From contig JAJPHL010000037.1 of assembly GCA_021325275.1 (NCBI GenBank), positions 186,001 to 250,000 of the forward strand: a stretch of DNA of 64,000 nt. The letters run 5' to 3'. The stretch is from Terriglobia bacterium (lineage in GTDB: Bacteria > Acidobacteriota > Terriglobia > JAJPHL01). This document shows positions 36,262 through 57,551 of the stretch, piece by piece. How positions within the stretch are numbered: position 1 is the stretch's first letter; every line of letters begins with the position of its first letter. The notes beneath the pieces are model-generated. The model was given only the letters and a program-made list of their open reading frames with translations, made no database searches and was not told the origin of the DNA. The position numbers were made by a program, and so were the translations under genes.

Positions 36262-39200
36262 CTAGGGTTTCCCGCTTTGATTGACGCTCGCGCCACCCCC
36301 GCTGGTTGGTGTTTCGCGAGAGATCACATCAAACCTTTCTCTGAGCTTTGAAATCGGTATGACATCTTCGGGCGGCATAGGGAGGCCTCTTGTGTACTGC
36401 ATCGGGACTACGGTGTTTGTCACCATGAGAGCTTTAATTCCTGAAATAGTGCCAAGATTCAGGACTCGCGCAACTTCCTGACGGTTATTGTTCAGCCATT
36501 CGCTTCTCCGCAGATGTTTGGCCATCTCGTCGTTTGCCTCTCCTTTGAAGCGCCGGAGTTGCTCCGCAATCTCACCGACTGTCCTCGCGAACCATAGGCT
36601 TTTGCATTCGACAACATAGACACGTCCGCCCTCCCAAGCGAGCACGTCTATATCGCCAAGGTCGCCGAGATCCCTCGGTACCAAGAGCTCCGTCATTCGT
36701 ACGGACGCTCGCGCATGCAGGCCGAGTGCCCCGAATTCGCGCGCAACGCGGTCGTTGAATTCGTGTCCTCTGCGGTTGTTTGCCCGCCCGACCCATGCCT
36801 TCATTAGATCGCTCAAGAATTCGGGGCCCAACGAACCGTCATGGGCACCACCAACAGCCTGCGCAAAGGCATCGCGATTTAGACCAGGCGAGAAAATCAT
36901 TAGATCGCCGAGGTCGAGGATAGGGCGGGCCAACAACGACAGTCGGCGTCCGAAGCGCCACGGATACCAGTCTTTGTTTTCGAAGCCAGCCGGCGCGCTG
37001 TCCCACCGTGGACGAGAGGTGAGACAGAACCTCCTTAAGAACGCCTCAGATTCCTCATGGTTCAAAGAGGCTAAAGCCAGCAGCCGAACCAGTTCGTCGC
37101 GCGAGATCTCCGCGACGAAAGATTTTCGATCGACAGCGTACTGTTCCATTGCGTCCGCCACCGAGAGTAGCTGAGGTAACGAAAAACCATGTTCTGTCCG
37201 GAAAGCGTCAACAAACTCTGCTTCGACGACATCCTCAATTCGTCGTGACGCCCGCTCCCTATATAGCTCCGAATAGGTTTCAGCACTTTTTTCGAGCAGG
37301 TCGACGAAATATCCGTCCTGGTATGGACGAAGGACCTCCTCAACATATTCCTGAGAGTTTATGAACTCGCCATTCGGGAAAATGCGAACTTCGGGCTTAG
37401 CAAAGTTCGCCCGAATACCGTCGGATGCGTGCGCGATCGCGACAAGATGCGACACTCGCGCGAGAAGGGCATCGTATTCGGCCGATCCGATCTCGTCGCC
37501 ACCTTCGGATGGGCAAGTGCAGAGCGCCATTTCTGCGAGTACGCGCGTTGCTATGGTTGCGCGGCTAATATCATTTTCATGCTTTTGTGATACGTCGAGC
37601 GCTTCGCGCTCGTCTTCGGTCAGCGCGATAATAGCTTGCGAGGTTCGACGCCACAATGCACGATCGATCTCAAGAGCGTCAAGATTCCCCAGACAGGCAA
37701 CTAGCGCGGAGCGACGGTCAAGCTTAACCAATTCTCCTTTAATCTTACGCCAGAGTGCGTCCACAGTAGAATTCAGGAATTTGCCACAGCCATCTGTCCC
37801 TTCAATAGTGAACGAGTCTTCCCGGGGTGTTTCGACTTCCCATGCGAGGCCGAGCATTGTAAGACTCTGATCCGGCTCGGCCACGATCCTCGCCGAGGTC
37901 CTCTTAAATTGCGCAATCTCATCGCGGACGTTCTGAAGGACGAAGGTATGCATGAAGCGTGCTTGGTCGGATGGAACCGCTCCATTCGCCAGCTCGCGTG
38001 CGATATTCGCATCCCCGGCGCCGGCCAAAGCCAAGCACCCGTTGGCGAACGCCTCCACGAGTTCGCGTTCAAAGAGATTCTGCGGTCGGCGAAGTAGGCT
38101 CCACATTTCTGGTCGTAACCGCAGTCTGACCTCATTGGCGCTTGTGATCTCCGCTTCAACGGAAGCAGCCGACGTCTCTGCGGTACGACATTCCCAGAGG
38201 CTTTCATCGCTGAAATCAATCTGTACGGCGACATCACCTTCAAGGGCATTGAGATGGACTTCGAGGGTACGGCTCAGCCGCATGGCCCATTTGAGCGCAG
38301 TTTCGAGAAGATGCGCTTGCATGTCGAACTGTCCCTCATCTTGACCAACAGGAACGCATTCGATCCAATAGCGCCTTGCACTCGTCTCGGCCATTCCGCG
38401 TAGTCTCCCATGTGCAATGTCATCCGGACTGACATAGATGGGACGGTTCTCCTCCTGCTTGAACAACGACTTGTAGTTTAGCCGCCTAAACGGGAGCCAA
38501 TCGCTTTCGCCCGCTCGACGCGCACCATGCCAGTCAAGGGCCTTTCGAGCCTTACTTCTGAAGGAGAAGGAGTACCCAGGCTCGACGCTAACGTTTAGGC
38601 TCTCCAATGCAACAGGACAGTGCCGCGGAAGAAGCCGATATCCGTTTGCCTCCCAATAGGAATACAACTCCACAAACCCACCGCTGGCGACAATCGGAAT
38701 CCCGCGGCTCTCGGCGACTTTCAGATGTTCCGCGAACTTCCACAACTGAAGTGGCCAATCTTGCCCGTGCCACTCTGTAAACCTAACGAAATCGGACAGA
38801 GACCAGAACTGGAACCCCCAGCCTCGCTGCATGGCGGGACTATATTGCAGACCAATTCCCCGTCCAACACCGCCGATCACGGCAACGGTAAGCCCGCTCG
38901 ATAACCCTCGTGAGCCGAAGACCTGACTCGCGAGCGCCACGTGAGCGGTCAGGCGCAGTTGGTCCGCATGCGATGGTAGATGTTGGACAAGTAGTCCGTC
39001 TTGAACTGCGGCGTTGAGGTCATCGTGCAAAAGCAGGAGGTGCAAGCCTTTGTTTTCATCGAAGGAATATGCTTCCGCGCAAACAAACCCCGGCGGAGTA
39101 ACTCCTTCAGGGGTCCAATCTGCAAGTTTGTTCCCACGAAGAGGCCGCGTAGCGTTGGAAAACACACGCCTCTCCTGTTGGGATTTCAAACCTTTGATGA

Positions 39201-40158
39201 AATTCGGCCAGCGCTGAGGTACGCGGCCGAACGCAAGGAGTATGTGCCTCCTGATACTGGCGCCGATGGCCGCAGGAATTGCGACGATCCATTTGCCGTC
39301 AATCTTCAGAAGAGGATGGCGCTCAAGAGACGAACTCTGGAGTCGCTGCTCTCGAAGCTGAGAGTATCGAGCGAAGTCGAATTCGAATGGTTGTAGGTGC
39401 TCGGGCCGAATGCCCAGTTTATCCAAGTCTGCGGTAGAAAAGGAAACTCTGAGTGCAAGGGCTTCGGGATCTCCAACAATCGAAACCGCCCTTGTCGGAG
39501 CACCTTCACTCGAAACAAATCTCGCCAATCCGGTTCTCGTTGCAATTTCGTCGCTCAGCAGCAGAAGCGCGGCTACTTGCTCTTGCAAACTGTGGTCGCC
39601 GAGGTCGCGTGTCGCGTCGAGCGCTTCCTGGAGCCAGAAGTCGGCGCCCTCCCAGTTTCCACAAAAAACTCTCCGGTTTCCGCGATTTGTGATGACGTTC
39701 GCAATGCACACGTCGTCTATTGGGTCTTCCAGATTGCGTAGCAGACTCGAAGAGAAGCCTGCGTTGATGACAGCCGCTAGATCTTGCGTCGACGGCCTCG
39801 TGTCTCCGCGGGCGAAAGCAACGACAATATGTTGAAGGGCTTCGAGTCGCGCCCAATTGGGTTGCAGTATCGGATCAGCCATAACGCCGGCGACCAGGGC
39901 GGACGTAAAGCCCAGCTCCCACATTCGAATCTTGTTCAAGCTGGCTTCGGGAAAAGCCGAGAATATCTGCTCAATCAGATCAGCCGCGTGCAATTCTTCC
40001 ATGCGTTGCGCAATCTTATCGGGGATGTCCTGGCTCGTTCCCATTGCAATCGAGGCGACCTCGATAATTCTATCAGTCACGTCATGCGTGTACTTCGCGG
40101 CGTTATCGCCTGCAGTCATCCATTTGCATCTGAGGTTAGTGTGGCGGGAAACACGCAT
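36262..40158 (-). CDS. Giant orphan protein with C-terminal PD-(D/E)XK-like nuclease motif
   Basis: 1298 residues, not recognised as any named family. No signal peptide or membrane helix is evident. The first two thirds look alpha-rich and mixed, without Walker or helicase motifs. Near the C-terminus GDIDVLAW (Asp1171) is followed by YVVECKSLW (Glu1184, Lys1186), the D-x12-E-x-K spacing of a PD-(D/E)XK nuclease, preceded by a helix with HEFNDRVAREF and followed by a long helix FARTVGEIAEQLRRF, as in restriction-type cores. Codon use is visibly more AT-rich than in neighbours, suggesting transfer. The first ATG (40158) is used; ATGs at 40119 and 40044 are alternatives and none has a clear ribosome site. 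Size, isolation and the nuclease suggest a single-gene defence factor, but that is inference. Confidence 0.8.
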   Translation of the reverse strand: MRVSRHTNLRCKWMTAGDNAAKYTHDVTDRIIEVASIAMGTSQDIPDKIAQRMEELHAADLIEQIFSAFPEASLNKIRMWELGFTSALVAGVMADPILQPNWARLEALQHIVVAFARGDTRPSTQDLAAVINAGFSSSLLRNLEDPIDDVCIANVITNRGNRRVFCGNWEGADFWLQEALDATRDLGDHSLQEQVAALLLLSDEIATRTGLARFVSSEGAPTRAVSIVGDPEALALRVSFSTADLDKLGIRPEHLQPFEFDFARYSQLREQRLQSSSLERHPLLKIDGKWIVAIPAAIGASIRRHILLAFGRVPQRWPNFIKGLKSQQERRVFSNATRPLRGNKLADWTPEGVTPPGFVCAEAYSFDENKGLHLLLLHDDLNAAVQDGLLVQHLPSHADQLRLTAHVALASQVFGSRGLSSGLTVAVIGGVGRGIGLQYSPAMQRGWGFQFWSLSDFVRFTEWHGQDWPLQLWKFAEHLKVAESRGIPIVASGGFVELYSYWEANGYRLLPRHCPVALESLNVSVEPGYSFSFRSKARKALDWHGARRAGESDWLPFRRLNYKSLFKQEENRPIYVSPDDIAHGRLRGMAETSARRYWIECVPVGQDEGQFDMQAHLLETALKWAMRLSRTLEVHLNALEGDVAVQIDFSDESLWECRTAETSAASVEAEITSANEVRLRLRPEMWSLLRRPQNLFERELVEAFANGCLALAGAGDANIARELANGAVPSDQARFMHTFVLQNVRDEIAQFKRTSARIVAEPDQSLTMLGLAWEVETPREDSFTIEGTDGCGKFLNSTVDALWRKIKGELVKLDRRSALVACLGNLDALEIDRALWRRTSQAIIALTEDEREALDVSQKHENDISRATIATRVLAEMALCTCPSEGGDEIGSAEYDALLARVSHLVAIAHASDGIRANFAKPEVRIFPNGEFINSQEYVEEVLRPYQDGYFVDLLEKSAETYSELYRERASRRIEDVVEAEFVDAFRTEHGFSLPQLLSVADAMEQYAVDRKSFVAEISRDELVRLLALASLNHEESEAFLRRFCLTSRPRWDSAPAGFENKDWYPWRFGRRLSLLARPILDLGDLMIFSPGLNRDAFAQAVGGAHDGSLGPEFLSDLMKAWVGRANNRRGHEFNDRVAREFGALGLHARASVRMTELLVPRDLGDLGDIDVLAWEGGRVYVVECKSLWFARTVGEIAEQLRRFKGEANDEMAKHLRRSEWLNNNRQEVARVLNLGTISGIKALMVTNTVVPMQYTRGLPMPPEDVIPISKLRERFDVISRETPTSGGGASVNQSGKP

Positions 40159-40839: not shown

Positions 40840-41880
40840 ATGCCGAAAAACCTGATCTTTCTCTCCGATGGCACGTGGGATCGCCCGACCGTGGCGGCTT
40901 CCGGCAATTCGAATGTGGTGCTGCTGCGCGATCGCCTGGTGAACGACGCGACGCAAGTGGTCGCCTACGACGACGGCGTCGGTGCGACCGGCAATATCGT
41001 CGAGCGATTGATCGAGGGCGCATTCGGCGACGGACTTTTTCAGAAAGTGAAGGATGGATATTCCTTCTTCGTCAAGAATTACGCCGTCGGCGATCCCATT
41101 TATGTTTTCGGATTCAGCCGCGGCGCGTATACCGCGCGGTCGATCGCCGGAATGGTGGCGGTGTGCGGACTGCCGACGCAGAACATCGCAGCGTTCGACG
41201 TGAATCAAGCGTGGGCGGCGTATCGCCAGCGCGATCCGGCCAAACGTCAGGCGGCCCTGGATGCGCTGAACGCGCAGTACGCCATGGATAACGCGCAGAT
41301 CACGATGGTCGGCGTATGGGACACCGTCGGGTCGCTGGGGATTCCCGCGCTTTTCGGCGGCGTCGATGCCTTCAAGGACGGATTCCTCGACGTGAACCTG
41401 CATCCCGACGTTCACAACGCGTATCAGGCGCTGGCGGTCGACGAAGCGCGCCGCGAATTCCCGGCGACGCTTTGGAATCCCGATATCGCGCCGCACCAAA
41501 CGCTCGTTCAAGTATGGTTCGCCGGCGTTCACACAAACGTCGGCGGCGGCGAGGTGAAGGGTTTTCTCTCGACTATTCCGCTGGTGTGGATGATGCGTGC
41601 GGCGTCGCGCTGCGGCGCGGTGCTGACGCCTGCCGCGCAGACGCAACTCACAGAGAGTTTATCGCCGTGGATCTACGACGTGATTACGCCGGCCGATCTT
41701 ATTCCTTGGGGGCTGCCGGTGCCGCGCACGATCCCCGCCGACGCGACGGTCGCGGACAGCGTGAAAATCCGCCTGCTCAACGATCCGACGTACAAACCGT
41801 CGCAGTTCACGCCGTCGAGCAAGTTGGACGGGCATCCGATTGAAGCCGTTGTGGAAATTGCCGCGGCTGCTGGGAATTAA
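40840..41880 (+). CDS. DUF2235 alpha/beta-hydrolase
   Basis: 346 residues. FLSDGTWD at the start and the nucleophile elbow GFSRG (Ser93) in [15 protein letters not shown] mark the DUF2235 family, which includes type VI phospholipase effectors (Tle1) as well as housekeeping hydrolases. No secretion partner or immunity gene is adjacent, so an effector role is not supported here. TATTGT lies 9 bases before the ATG. The stop codon is the first triplet of hairpin F. Confidence 0.88.
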
Positions 41881-47591: not shown

Positions 47592-48500
47592 TTACTTCTT
47601 GCCATCAATGACGTACTCGACCTGCTGTTTGTCATGCTCCAACTCCTTTTTTGCCGCACTAGCCTGTTTTGAAGTCTGCTCGTAGGTTTCGGCGAGCGCG
47701 CTGTGTTTCTTAATGTTCCGCTGGGGATCGATGCCGTCAGCATCTTGCTCTTTTTTCAACGCACTGTACGCCTTGAGCGTTTGTGCTCGCGCCGCACTTG
47801 CACGCTGAAGAGTGGTTTGGTGTTGGCCAAGCTGCGCAATGATCGGTCGCAACGCTTCTGCGGCTCGGGCAGCGTCTACCGCATTGCCCCCGCTCACGAT
47901 GACCTGCAGCGGTGCCCCCTCTAACGCCAGCGCCGCTTGACTCGCCAGGAAAGCCATCTCTTCATTGGCGAGTCGTTCCCCTCCATAAGTTGGTCCTAGG
48001 AGTCGCGTCTTGGCAGCAGCGAGAATGACCATTGCGCGGCGCAATGCTTCATTTGGTATTCGCGTCCCTGACATTGCCACGTGCGCAATCGGCGCCGTGA
48101 AGCTGCCAGGACTAGATGGCACTGTGTTGAAGAAATTAGTCCCCGGCGAAATGCTGACTGTGTTGCTTTGCAAAGTCACGCTGCCCACTGAGGAAACCGC
48201 TATCCAGCTTGTTTGAACGAGTTTATCCTGTGCCTCTTTGCGTATCTGGCTCCGTCGCTCCTCGACCGGATCGATGGGACGCCGCTTGGTCCTGTCGTCC
48301 AGACCAGTCACGGTGTCATTCGAAGACCTCCTCTCGGAGCGTCGGGGCGCCGTCGGAGTCGGGCTTCCGGGACACCCTCCGCCGGAACTGCCTTGACAGA
48401 CCATATCCCGTTGCCACTGGGCCCAGGACTTACTAGCGGGCCAAGCCACAAATAAACAGCAGAGAGAAGCAATCAGGATGCGCCGTGTGTGACTAAACAT
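47592..48500 (-). CDS. Hypothetical exported protein (third of a coupled operon)
   Basis: 302 residues from the ATG at 48500, which overlaps the stop of the preceding gene (TGATG); an ATG at 48515 is also possible. A signal peptide (about 1-28, ending KSWAQ) is followed by a Ser/Arg-rich segment with two Cys (VCQGSSGGGC), a Ser/Thr/Pro-rich middle (about 110-145) and a helical C-terminal half with a coiled coil (about 215-295). No family was recognised. Confidence 0.78.
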   Translation of the reverse strand: MFSHTRRILIASLCCLFVAWPASKSWAQWQRDMVCQGSSGGGCPGSPTPTAPRRSERRSSNDTVTGLDDRTKRRPIDPVEERRSQIRKEAQDKLVQTSWIAVSSVGSVTLQSNTVSISPGTNFFNTVPSSPGSFTAPIAHVAMSGTRIPNEALRRAMVILAAAKTRLLGPTYGGERLANEEMAFLASQAALALEGAPLQVIVSGGNAVDAARAAEALRPIIAQLGQHQTTLQRASAARAQTLKAYSALKKEQDADGIDPQRNIKKHSALAETYEQTSKQASAAKKELEHDKQQVEYVIDGKK

Positions 48501-50857
48501 CAATCGGTTGAACATTGGATTCCCCAATCTTTGAGCTGCCGGCAGGCGAGGATTGCCTTGGCTCCCTGCGGCGCCAAGCGTAGATAAAGGATGAACTCCT
48601 GAGCGGCAATCCTTTTGTTCGAAGTATAGGTCTCGTCGTCATACTTGAGGTTGTTAGAGAAATAGGAATCGCGCGCATAGATCGCCAAGTTGTAGTGCGC
48701 CTCCGGCCACCACGGTGCGATTGTGGTTGCCGCCACCGCCGCGCGAAAAGCGGGGTAATCTACTTTGTTTTCTCGAATGGCCTGCTCCGCGAACATCTCC
48801 TGCTCGAGAGCACGTTTCGGCGGCAACGGCTTCAATCGTAGCGCGCGGTAGAGTTGCGCGGTCTGCCAGGCGATTTGCCACTTCTCGTGTTCCAACGCCG
48901 ATTTATCCGGATTTCCGAAGCCCCCCCACTGAACAACCTCCGTTAGCAATTCGTGGAGGAGAGATAAATGGCCAAGCCGCGGATAGTGCAAGCCGACACT
49001 GATCGCCCGATCGTCCGCATCCTTGATCGTGCCATATACGATGTCGTAGGTCATTAACCGCGTCTGATTACGGTTGTCCGGGGCGGGATCAAGGGGCGGC
49101 ATGGCAATCAAGGTATCGAGAGCCAGCTTCCAACCGCCGACACCGAAAGCCGCGGCGATGCGCCATCTGCGGATGTTCGAATCCAGCCGGTCTGCGGCAT
49201 GGGCTCGGTCGAAGGCTTGGTAAGCACTCAGGTAATCGCCCAGAACCAAGTGAGAGATTCCCAGGCGCACCAGGGATCCGCTATTTAAATTCTGGCCCAA
49301 ATCGGCAGCAGATTGATAGGCCCAGATGGCGTCGCCATAGCGGTGAAGTTCAAAGCTCATCGACGCGACGCCGTACAGAAGGGCTTCGTTGTCGGGTTCC
49401 AATTCCAGCGCGTTTAGAAAGAGATCGAGTGCGCCCTGCGTGTCGCCCGTTTTCATGTCCGCTATAGCCGCCTCCGCGAGGATCTTAACTCCCCCATCGT
49501 GCATGTCCAAAGGCGAAGAGGTCCTCATTTCCCTCAAAATTGTCGAACGAAACATCGGGTCATATGCGGCGAGAAGACCGCTCGCCTTTGCTTCCTGTCC
49601 GGTAACTATGTAGTAATGGTATTGCTTCGCAACCTGGAAGCCCCATATGAACGTGTCGAAGTAGCGAGTGCTCGCCAGGTCCTCGTCACGCCCACTCGCA
49701 AAGTGTGCTTTCGGCCTTTGGAGGGATGCCTCCATCAGGCTAATCGCCGTTTCTTGGTCGCCGAGCTTGCCATATGCCTCAGCCAGGACCGTATAGCTCC
49801 AACGAAATTCTGGGTGCAGCGCCGCTGCAACCTTTAGCGGTCCGATGGCCTCCGCTGGTTTACCGAGATCGAGCAGCAGGTAGCCGAGGAAATAGTTGGC
49901 GTCATAATCGTTAGGAGAGTGCACCACGAGCTCTCTGAGCGGCGAAATGAAAATGCTTTTGTCCTTCTGGTCCTTGAGGCCCAGTAGTAAGCCCTCTTGC
50001 AGGAGTTCTTGAAGGGGACCCTGTTGCACCGCGATGACCACTTCGGCCAGAGCCTTCACTGGAGAGGTATCGCGAGGATCCGCGACGGGAGGGACCTCCG
50101 TCTTGTCACCCCGTGCACTAACACGATCAACGCCCGGGGGAGCACTCGGGCCTCCACTCGGCGACGTCTGCGAGGCGGCTAATCCGGAACCGTCCGCACC
50201 AATGGTCATATCGTAGGCTAGTACGATATCGTTGGTGACATCCACGCCAGCGGTCTGAAAAAGCACCTGCCCGGCATTGGAGGAATTTAGCATCAGATCA
50301 TACCCGTTCTTCTGGGAGTAAGCCTTAATCACTTGCAGCATCTTGCTGCCAATGACATTGACGATCTGGTCGAGGGCCTGCTGGTACTCCGCTGTGGAAT
50401 CGTCGTTGGCGCTCTTGAAGTCCCTTTTCTTGCGTTCGATATCCCGCGCCAACTGGGACTTCTGTTCCTCGCTGGGGATTTTTTCACCCTGCTGGAGCTT
50501 CGATTCCAAGTCCTGGATTTCCTTCGCTTTTTGATCGAGATCGGCCTTCTTCGAAGCAAAACGTTTAGTAAGACCCTCGGAGGATTTCTTGCCTTCGGCG
50601 CAAGCCGCGATCGCCGCCTGTATGTTGACTGTGACGACCTTGGTGGGACTGGTCGCCAACGCCGCCTGTTGCTGCTGGGCCGCTACTTGAGTCTGTGCGG
50701 CAGTCCACACGCTGCAGGCCAATGCGATGACCGCGAACCAATGCGTCGTAACTGCTTTCACGCCGGCTTCATCGCCCGATTCGCCACGCTGGCGAGCCGC
50801 CCTCTTTTCCGTGATTTCCGGCCTTCCCCCCGAAATGAACGCATGCTCCTGTTTCAT
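48500..50857 (-). CDS. OmpH/Skp-like domain fused to TPR repeats, exported
   Basis: 785 residues from the ATG at 50857, coupled to the upstream stop (ATGA) with GGAGG before it. A signal or anchor helix sits at about 38-58. Residues about 72-220 resemble the periplasmic chaperone OmpH/Skp (KVVTVNIQAAI, then a long charged coiled coil, then KNGYDLMLN and DVTNDIVLAYD). Residues about 290-780 contain several TPR-like pairs (ANYFLGYLLLDLGKPAEAI, SYTVLAEAYGKLGDQETAI, ALDLFLNALELEPDNEALLY). The fusion is unusual: Skp proteins are normally near 160-200 residues. Confidence 0.85.
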   Translation of the reverse strand: MKQEHAFISGGRPEITEKRAARQRGESGDEAGVKAVTTHWFAVIALACSVWTAAQTQVAAQQQQAALATSPTKVVTVNIQAAIAACAEGKKSSEGLTKRFASKKADLDQKAKEIQDLESKLQQGEKIPSEEQKSQLARDIERKKRDFKSANDDSTAEYQQALDQIVNVIGSKMLQVIKAYSQKNGYDLMLNSSNAGQVLFQTAGVDVTNDIVLAYDMTIGADGSGLAASQTSPSGGPSAPPGVDRVSARGDKTEVPPVADPRDTSPVKALAEVVIAVQQGPLQELLQEGLLLGLKDQKDKSIFISPLRELVVHSPNDYDANYFLGYLLLDLGKPAEAIGPLKVAAALHPEFRWSYTVLAEAYGKLGDQETAISLMEASLQRPKAHFASGRDEDLASTRYFDTFIWGFQVAKQYHYYIVTGQEAKASGLLAAYDPMFRSTILREMRTSSPLDMHDGGVKILAEAAIADMKTGDTQGALDLFLNALELEPDNEALLYGVASMSFELHRYGDAIWAYQSAADLGQNLNSGSLVRLGISHLVLGDYLSAYQAFDRAHAADRLDSNIRRWRIAAAFGVGGWKLALDTLIAMPPLDPAPDNRNQTRLMTYDIVYGTIKDADDRAISVGLHYPRLGHLSLLHELLTEVVQWGGFGNPDKSALEHEKWQIAWQTAQLYRALRLKPLPPKRALEQEMFAEQAIRENKVDYPAFRAAVAATTIAPWWPEAHYNLAIYARDSYFSNNLKYDDETYTSNKRIAAQEFILYLRLAPQGAKAILACRQLKDWGIQCSTD

Positions 50858-51957
50858 TGGCCCTCCAAGGACTTGCGGTATACGGAGAGCCATAGGTCGG
50901 CCTGAGCGATCCGCTGGTTAAGGAACTCCTCTGCCACTATGTGATTCCGATAGGCGCGTTGCAACTCCGCTTGGTCCTGCTTCATCCGTTCTAAGGTATA
51001 TTCGGACATCGCCGCTTGCACGGTGGAACGGGCCGCCTTACCGGTCGCCAACATCGGAATGTCAGTTAAGGCGTTGACCACATCGTCAGCGGCGGCCGCC
51101 AGCCCTTTCAAATCGAATGGCTGCCCGTCCGACCAACGCTGGCCAATCTTGGCCAATTTGAAGAGGGCATCCGTTCCTCGCACGATAGCAGCCCGCTCCT
51201 TTGCGGAAATCGGCAATGCGGGGTACGCCACCAACAAATTCTTGATCCCCATGCTGGCATCTATGAACCTGTCCGACGGCACGGTTCGCGCGCGCGCGAC
51301 CGCTCGGACATTGATTTCAGCCCTTGCGGTGGTTACGAGGAGGCTGATCCGTTCGGCATCGCTGGGCGGCAAGCCGCCCTCGGCCGCGATGGCCTGAGCC
51401 GCGGCGCCGATGACGGTCAGCGTATTCACCATGTCGTCAGCGATCAGGTCACGGGCCAATTCGTCGTTCGCTATAATCGCGTCGGTGAATTCGATCCTTC
51501 GATCCTGGAGCGTTGTCAGTTGGCGCATGAGAAACACTCGTTTGGCGATCAACTGGCGTTGCTGCTGGCGCGCATAGGCGGCCCATTCAGGCGTGACATA
51601 AACTGCTTGATCGACCCGCGCGAAGACGGGGAGGCCCGTACTCAGTCGCTCAAGGGCGACGCGATCCTTGAGGGACAATCGCTCAATGGCCGCCGGATCG
51701 AGCGTCGCGATATCGGTGATGGAGAGCTCTGCGATCGGCGTGCAATGGATGCGCAAGCGCCGATCCTCCAGCATTTCGCGTCTTGTTTCGATTGTGGTTT
51801 CCGGGCAGCCGTCAACGATTGCCTCGGTTGACGGCGCCGAAGTCGCAACTCCGCCGTCGCCCAGACGCTCGATTTCTCCGCCCGCGATGGTGCCCCCTCT
51901 CGCTTGAGAGCAAAGGCCCAAGTAGGAAAATAGTAAACAGATTGCCAGCCGATTCAT
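50854..51957 (-). CDS. Hypothetical exported helical protein (first of a coupled operon)
   Basis: 367 residues. The start at 51957 has GGAGG at good spacing; a frame to 51972 is not needed. A signal peptide (about 1-21, LCSQARG) is followed by a Cys-containing segment (DGCPETT, IHCTPIAE) and a mainly helical domain (about 110-365). No family was recognised. A TATAGT box at 52020-52025 on the minus strand is a likely -10 for the three-gene operon. Confidence 0.8.
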   Translation of the reverse strand: MNRLAICLLFSYLGLCSQARGGTIAGGEIERLGDGGVATSAPSTEAIVDGCPETTIETRREMLEDRRLRIHCTPIAELSITDIATLDPAAIERLSLKDRVALERLSTGLPVFARVDQAVYVTPEWAAYARQQQRQLIAKRVFLMRQLTTLQDRRIEFTDAIIANDELARDLIADDMVNTLTVIGAAAQAIAAEGGLPPSDAERISLLVTTARAEINVRAVARARTVPSDRFIDASMGIKNLLVAYPALPISAKERAAIVRGTDALFKLAKIGQRWSDGQPFDLKGLAAAADDVVNALTDIPMLATGKAARSTVQAAMSEYTLERMKQDQAELQRAYRNHIVAEEFLNQRIAQADLWLSVYRKSLEGQ

Positions 51958-56858: not shown

Positions 56859-57296
56859 TTAAGATTGCACCTCTTCCGATCGACTGATCAATTTCACGCC
56901 TGCGGCGGCAGCCGCTCTTCGAAGATCAGCATCTTGCGTTGCCAGAGGGAAACCAGTATCCAATGACAGGGCGAGATAGGCCGCGTCGTAAGAGGTCAAT
57001 TGGTGTTTTGCAGCGAGGCGACGAACTCGGGTTAGTGTCTCCTCTGTATCGAGCGGGTGGACGCGTACCGAGAAGCGCAAAATCTCCGCGATGAACCGTT
57101 CCACACGATCTTCGGTCACTCGGCCCTTACGTTGAGCGTGAACAAGGATGTTGGCAATCTCAAGGGACCAAACAGCGGGGACGTGCACGTCCGTCCCGGC
57201 TGCACACCAGTTCAGAAGTTCTTCTGTGTAGGGATTCGCTTCATCGTCGAAGCACCAAGCCAAGGTTACTGACGCGTCCGGGATGAACGGCTCCAT
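56859..57296 (-). CDS. PIN-domain toxin (VapC-like)
   Basis: 145 residues with the acidic PIN quartet: Asp7 (FIPDASV), Glu in SLEIANIL, Asp in TSYDAAYLALS and Asp in TQDADL. VapC toxins cut tRNA or other RNA. It starts one base after the antitoxin stop, as expected for a type II pair. Confidence 0.92.
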   Translation of the reverse strand: MEPFIPDASVTLAWCFDDEANPYTEELLNWCAAGTDVHVPAVWSLEIANILVHAQRKGRVTEDRVERFIAEILRFSVRVHPLDTEETLTRVRRLAAKHQLTSYDAAYLALSLDTGFPLATQDADLRRAAAAAGVKLISRSEEVQS

Positions 57297-57551
57297 TTAG
57301 AATCGATGGCCTTGGTGTGCTAAGTCTTTCATCCGCATGCCGCCTAGCGTGACGCCCGTTCGCAGTTCGCGGAGTCGTGCGGCGGCTTCGGCCCATTGGG
57401 CGGTCGCGTCAGGGGTGCTGACATCGCGGAACCCACGCGCGTGTAGCGCGCGCACACCTTCGGCGATCAAGTCGTCAACAGATCCGATGTGTCCACTCGC
57501 GATCTCCTGACGTACTAGCCGTTCCGTTTCCGGTCTAATTTCGATTGTCAT
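57297..57551 (-). CDS. Antitoxin of the PIN-domain toxin, ribbon-helix-helix type
   Basis: 84 residues. The N-terminal MTIEIRPETERLVRQEIASG and VDDLIAEGVRALH look like a ParD-type ribbon-helix-helix DNA-binding domain; the C-terminal part should wrap the toxin. First gene of the pair and probably represses it. Confidence 0.85.
   Translation of the reverse strand: MTIEIRPETERLVRQEIASGHIGSVDDLIAEGVRALHARGFRDVSTPDATAQWAEAAARLRELRTGVTLGGMRMKDLAHQGHRF

Follow-up and report, generated by a model that had tools for sequence, protein, structure and literature searches.

A coupled three-gene operon of exported-looking proteins encodes a Skp-TPR fusion in a Terriglobia bacterium

Within a 64,000-nucleotide stretch of a Terriglobia bacterium genome, referred to here as the window, we delineated an operon of three overlapping genes on the reverse strand, termed G1, G2 and G3, whose middle gene encodes an exported-looking protein joining a complete OmpH/Skp domain to a long TPR part. 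Sequence comparison indicates that the Skp domain of G2 is a lineage-specific duplicate of the bamA-linked skp gene of the same genome, joined to the TPR part. As a possible product of the operon we propose a dedicated periplasmic holding complex.

The first gene, G1 (50854–51957, reverse strand), encodes an exported-looking, largely helical protein of 367 residues belonging to no known family. It is followed by G2 (48500–50857, reverse strand; 785 residues) and G3 (47592–48515, reverse strand; 307 residues), the latter encoding an exported-looking protein with an amino-terminal cysteine pair and a carboxy-terminal helical hairpin. The original prediction of three genes coupled by overlapping stop and start codons was borne out at both junctions, with coordinates matching its outer limits. 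As read from the sequence, the stop codon of G1 and the ATG of G2 overlap as ATGA, with a GGAGG just upstream of the G2 start, and G2 and G3 overlap by 16 nucleotides, or by a TGATG junction if the second methionine of G3 is the start. Likewise, hydrophobic export-signal-like amino termini were recognized by eye in all three proteins, as had been predicted, that of G2 being unusual in having ~36 residues ahead of the hydrophobic stretch. The operon is flanked upstream by a divergent PSD1/PSCyt-type gene and downstream, after a gap, by uvrA on the same strand. Scans for promoters and terminators at the operon gave signals no higher than in shuffled sequences, and the intergenic segment 47219–47600 has no repeat copies in the genome. 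Codon scores calculated for 83 long open reading frames of the same contig placed G3 at the 1st, G2 at the 7th and G1 at the 16th percentile, compared with the 41st for uvrA; the proposed difference in composition from the flanking genes therefore holds for uvrA, but it is graded from G3 over G2 to G1.

Elsewhere in the window we observed a 1298-residue protein with low GC3 (36262–40158, reverse strand) that matches the anti-phage protein Upx (PADLOC, E = 5.2e-153), its score of 571.8 bits against NCBIfam NF042954 being well under the cut-off of 1900, a Tle1-like phospholipase catalytic domain (40840–41880, forward strand; Pfam PF09994, E = 1.3e-68), and a PIN-domain gene (56859–57551, reverse strand) directly after a small gene in a toxin–antitoxin-like layout, paired by eye. 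An ADOP-type permease is also encoded in the genome (NCBIfam TIGR03434, 804.8 bits, cut-off 622.3), in keeping with a probable placement in the Acidobacteriota.

Skp is a small free chaperone, and the E. coli protein forms a trimer. In G2, the OmpH/Skp domain (Pfam PF03938) spans residues ~73–212 (50222–50641, reverse strand) and covers positions 1–138 of the 141-position profile with an E-value of 1.7e-21 and a score of 77.3 bits, compared with a cut-off of 32.4. The main TPR region, detected by Pfam TPR models, comprises residues ~305–560 (49178–49945, reverse strand). These two were the only recognized domains of the operon, as anticipated, and G1 and G3 gave nothing above the cut-off. In total, G2 carries ~570 residues beyond its Skp domain, whereas the Skp frames inspected in the six longest-frame cases measure ~200–380 residues; moreover, its gene partners are G1 and G3 and not bamA. 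Against the NCBIfam equivalog "molecular chaperone Skp", G2 scored 18.6 bits, below the cut-off of 237, a threshold that does not discriminate here because the bamA-linked Skp of the same genome also stays below it with 34.7 bits. The Skp coil of G2 also drew a PADLOC match to PbeC (E = 0.0012), which we attributed to coiled-coil noise.

Matches to G2 were obtained in all 61 genomes of a first comparison set, the best outside G2 itself being the other Skp of its own genome (G000:C19), which adjoins bamA and is 50% identical, followed by a next match at 39%. A tree of 39 Skp domains joins these two proteins as sisters with a support of 100/99 and similar branch lengths of 0.39 and 0.42, which argues that the domain was copied within the lineage after its split from the sampled relatives. 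Across the class, Skp-type matches to G2 at E ≤ 1e-10 occurred in 283 of 299 genomes, and no other Skp-TPR fusion was found among the matches listed; none of the six long frames that we inspected around Skp matches (G088, G011, G119, G108, G274 and G018; a 414-residue frame in G237 was left out) is a further fusion. Several genomes of the class (G025, G039, G059, G151, G277 and others) carry two Skp genes in tandem, from which we conclude that Skp duplication is common in the class. Within the collection of papers searched by titles and abstract openings, including for the Acidobacteria, none reported a Skp/OmpH-TPR fusion.

The carboxy-terminal TPR module of G2 (residues ~659–729; 48671–48883, reverse strand) is common to a family of ~300-residue exported TPR proteins. 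The last 226 residues of G2 were matched in four of 299 genomes including its own, and the matches in the other three (G297, G141 and G095) are exported-looking TPR proteins of about this length. Local-window shuffling gave z-scores of 5.8–11.0 for the G2 module against four family members and 9.9 against a protein of genome G107. Furthermore, a hidden Markov model built from five members without G2 recovered, out of 2864 open reading frames, its own five sequences, G2 (6e-8) and the G107 protein (2.5e-6) only. The module carries the family signature KP..P and WPE, and the alignment including G2 has 24 invariant columns. These comparisons place the module in a small family of exported TPR proteins.

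In all three other genomes the TPR-family gene is adjoined by a gene for a second protein, termed X, of 670–757 residues (L086, L087 and L088), exported-looking, with an amino-terminal cysteine region, a coiled coil and GLPGIY-type stretches. X remains unnamed in Pfam (three of three checked) and in NCBIfam (two of three checked). An alignment of the X proteins from G297, G141 and G095 matched four of 200 genomes, including the new G107 and G182, with G297 absent among the matches listed. At three of the four loci (G297, G141 and G095), though not in G107, X and the TPR protein are encoded on opposite strands. In G182, a 1329-residue open frame (L121:6723–10709, reverse strand) fuses a PDZ-containing amino-terminal part to an X domain, and the fetched stretch contains no TPR-family open reading frame. 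At L088:5188–5874 (reverse strand), the start of a 228-residue frame resembles a relative of the adjoining TPR proteins, whereas its end looks by eye like the tail of an IS3-type transposase, as if a paralogue had been interrupted by the element.

G3 was matched in one of 61 genomes and, at E ≤ 0.01, in 18 of 399, its own included in both counts. The weak matches amounted to 18 places in 17 genomes; 17 of these places were fetched with their neighborhoods, a tiny contig in G219 being left out. Among 19 fetched weak-match neighborhoods, G107 was the only one with an X or TPR-family open reading frame; the remaining fetched places had neither nearby. In this distant genome, a truncated stretch with the X carboxy terminus, a 426-residue protein matching G3 and a 554-residue PDZ-TPR-PDZ protein follow each other on one strand, a locus that we reached independently from the X alignment and from the weak G3 match. 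The TPR partner carries DegP/DegQ-like PDZ domains in place of Skp. The G3-matching protein (L106:812–2089) was detected with a phmmer E-value of 1.2e-4 among 2864 open reading frames and a shuffle z-score of 5.6, one of 1000 local shuffles scoring as high, and the two proteins have in common the stretches TNFF and E..(Y/F)L..QAA.A..G.P.QV.VSG. It is thus a probable distant relative of G3, found in a single genome. Searching L106:812–2089 against 204 relatives of G107 gave matches in three, G107 itself included; the other two are weak, contain internal stops and have no X- or TPR-related open reading frame nearby, indicating that the G3-like family is very sparse. The single-sequence structure model of G3 was mostly helical and poor (mean pLDDT 50.6), ending in a helical hairpin at ~212–303 with pLDDT values of mostly 78–90 in this block.

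For G1 we found no demonstrable relative. It matched its own genome only in the set of 61 and, at E ≤ 0.01, three of 399 genomes including itself; the matches in G375 and G014, one antisense to a long reading frame and the other within a frame that appeared secretin-like by eye, were rejected, and a Fervidobacterium protein (L035), peptide-binding-type by eye, with the short stretch WSDGxPFD in common, was rejected as a chance match. An X-domain model built from four sequences scored G1 at -1.4 bits, and shuffle z-scores against five X or large proteins ranged from -1.0 to 2.9, supporting no relation to X; the likeness of G1 to X is one of position and helical layout only. The G1 model, mostly helical and poor (mean pLDDT 54.9), shows with low confidence a 73-residue helix at ~123–195 and a long carboxy-terminal helix at ~322–366, and two cysteines, Cys51 and Cys71, were noted by eye. 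Sequence comparison showed no relation between G1 and G3. Both proteins gave nothing above the cut-off in Pfam, NCBIfam, PHROGs and PADLOC, no significant sequence match in the PDB, no match in viral contigs and plasmids and, with the poor models, no Foldseek match at E ≤ 0.001. No sequence relative of G1 was found within the partial set of G107.

The three-gene set as a whole was found in no other genome of the sets of 61 and 399, so that the co-occurring homologues by which the predicted complex was to be checked did not turn up. Homologues scattered singly and unassociated, named beforehand as its refutation, describe the situation only in part, because hardly any homologues exist to be scattered. 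In the sole same-order genome compared, the row of uvrA, a CPBP gene and mtnA is kept and the operon is missing upstream of uvrA.

The original prediction had proposed a periplasmic chaperone–scaffold complex handling one dedicated client. It gains from an intact Skp domain that is closely related to the bamA-linked copy of the same genome and fused to a TPR scaffold, and from the PDZ-TPR protein of G107 adjoining a probable G3 relative, but it is left without co-occurring homologues of all three genes, and the G107 set is without a G1 relative. A precedent for such a unit is the type 9 secretion system, where a TPR protein is described as forming one periplasmic structure together with a Skp trimer (PMC10994853). 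We consider it somewhat short of an even chance that the product of the operon is a dedicated periplasmic holding complex. In such a complex, G2 would be exported and would trimerise through its Skp body, like E. coli Skp and SkpA, whereupon its Skp cavity together with the three TPR arms would bind G1 and G3, the helical exported proteins made alongside it, keep soluble those of their segments that are disordered or coiled-coil, and place both proteins in the envelope. The arrangement would resemble SprE with the SkpA trimer of the type 9 translocon, but as one chain. That G1 or G3 is the client is suggested solely by the shared operon. This reading is favored by the overlapping genes, the complete OmpH domain and the lineage-specific skp duplicate, together with the TPR family adjoining exported coiled-coil proteins and the probable G3 relative beside the PDZ-TPR protein in G107. 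It is weakened by the lack of a full three-gene homologue, by G1 being unrelated to X and G3-like proteins nearly absent, by X and TPR genes being on opposite strands at all but one of the four loci, and by the low quality of the G1 and G3 models.

Alternatively, G2 may act as a second, general holdase for outer-membrane proteins, in which Skp binds many unfolded barrels, the TPR part docks to BAM or Sec, and G1 and G3 have an accessory role. The derivation of its Skp domain from bamA-linked skp would suit this reading, as would the pairing described for YfgM and other TPR proteins with periplasmic chaperones, which takes place at the Sec translocon (PMC9643414). We regard this as unlikely, as an ordinary skp is still kept beside bamA, G2 is linked to two orphan exported proteins instead of bam or sec genes, and the related TPR proteins elsewhere adjoin exported coiled-coil proteins. 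The YfgM–PpiD pair (PMC9643414) likewise combines a TPR domain with a periplasmic chaperone, but unlike G2 it uses another chaperone family, is anchored in the inner membrane and is not known from an operon with orphan exported proteins.

A lower probability still is assigned to G2 being built into an envelope translocon as a structural component, its Skp trimer immobilizing a disordered segment of a partner, its TPR arm forming a periplasmic dish, and G1 and G3 serving as further parts. In the extended type 9 translocon, the TPR lipoprotein SprE and the SkpA trimer are reported to form one periplasmic dish, in which SkpA orders a disordered segment of SprA as a structural part and not as a chaperone (PMC10994853), and the single chain of G2 would fuse both roles. 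The two systems agree in uniting a Skp homologue and a TPR scaffold in one periplasmic unit, but there they are described as two proteins. No translocon barrel gene was found beside the operon, no SprA- or PorV-like gene is among its annotated neighbors, no counterpart of G1 or G3 was recognized in the type 9 system, and no SprE/PorW model was among the NCBIfam matches of G2 at E ≤ 1, a database that may lack such a model. Least probable is a young, fast-changing locus of little or no fixed function created when skp was by chance duplicated into a TPR gene, since three intact frames with two overlapping junctions, a conserved Skp domain whose branch does not exceed the housekeeping one in length, and the occurrence of related TPR and G3-like proteins in other genomes stand against the missing full homologues, the atypical codon use, strongest in G3, and the absence beside uvrA.

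Returning to the dedicated holding complex, its closest parallel within the class is the exported TPR family with its X neighbors (G141, G095, G297 and G107), which has in common with the operon the carboxy-terminal TPR module and adjoining exported proteins, coiled-coil ones in that family, the G107 row holding the probable G3 relative; these TPR proteins differ in having an amino-terminal part of their own or PDZ domains and not Skp, and the operon differs in that G1 is unrelated to X by sequence and in the strand arrangement. Tentatively, and on the doubtful side, the class may possess an exported system of modular design, whose conserved TPR scaffold is combined with interchangeable periplasmic quality-control plug-ins and serves fast-changing adjoining coiled-coil surface or envelope proteins; if so, the plug-ins would be a Skp taken from the bamA-linked chaperone in one lineage and a DegP/DegQ-like PDZ in another. 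G2 would represent a natural fusion that joins Skp, otherwise a free chaperone or, in the type 9 system, a structural partner of a TPR protein, to a TPR part in a single chain. It would thereby indicate that this functional pairing also occurs in another bacterial group, and what Skp paralogues do beyond barrel folding would become testable in one small operon.
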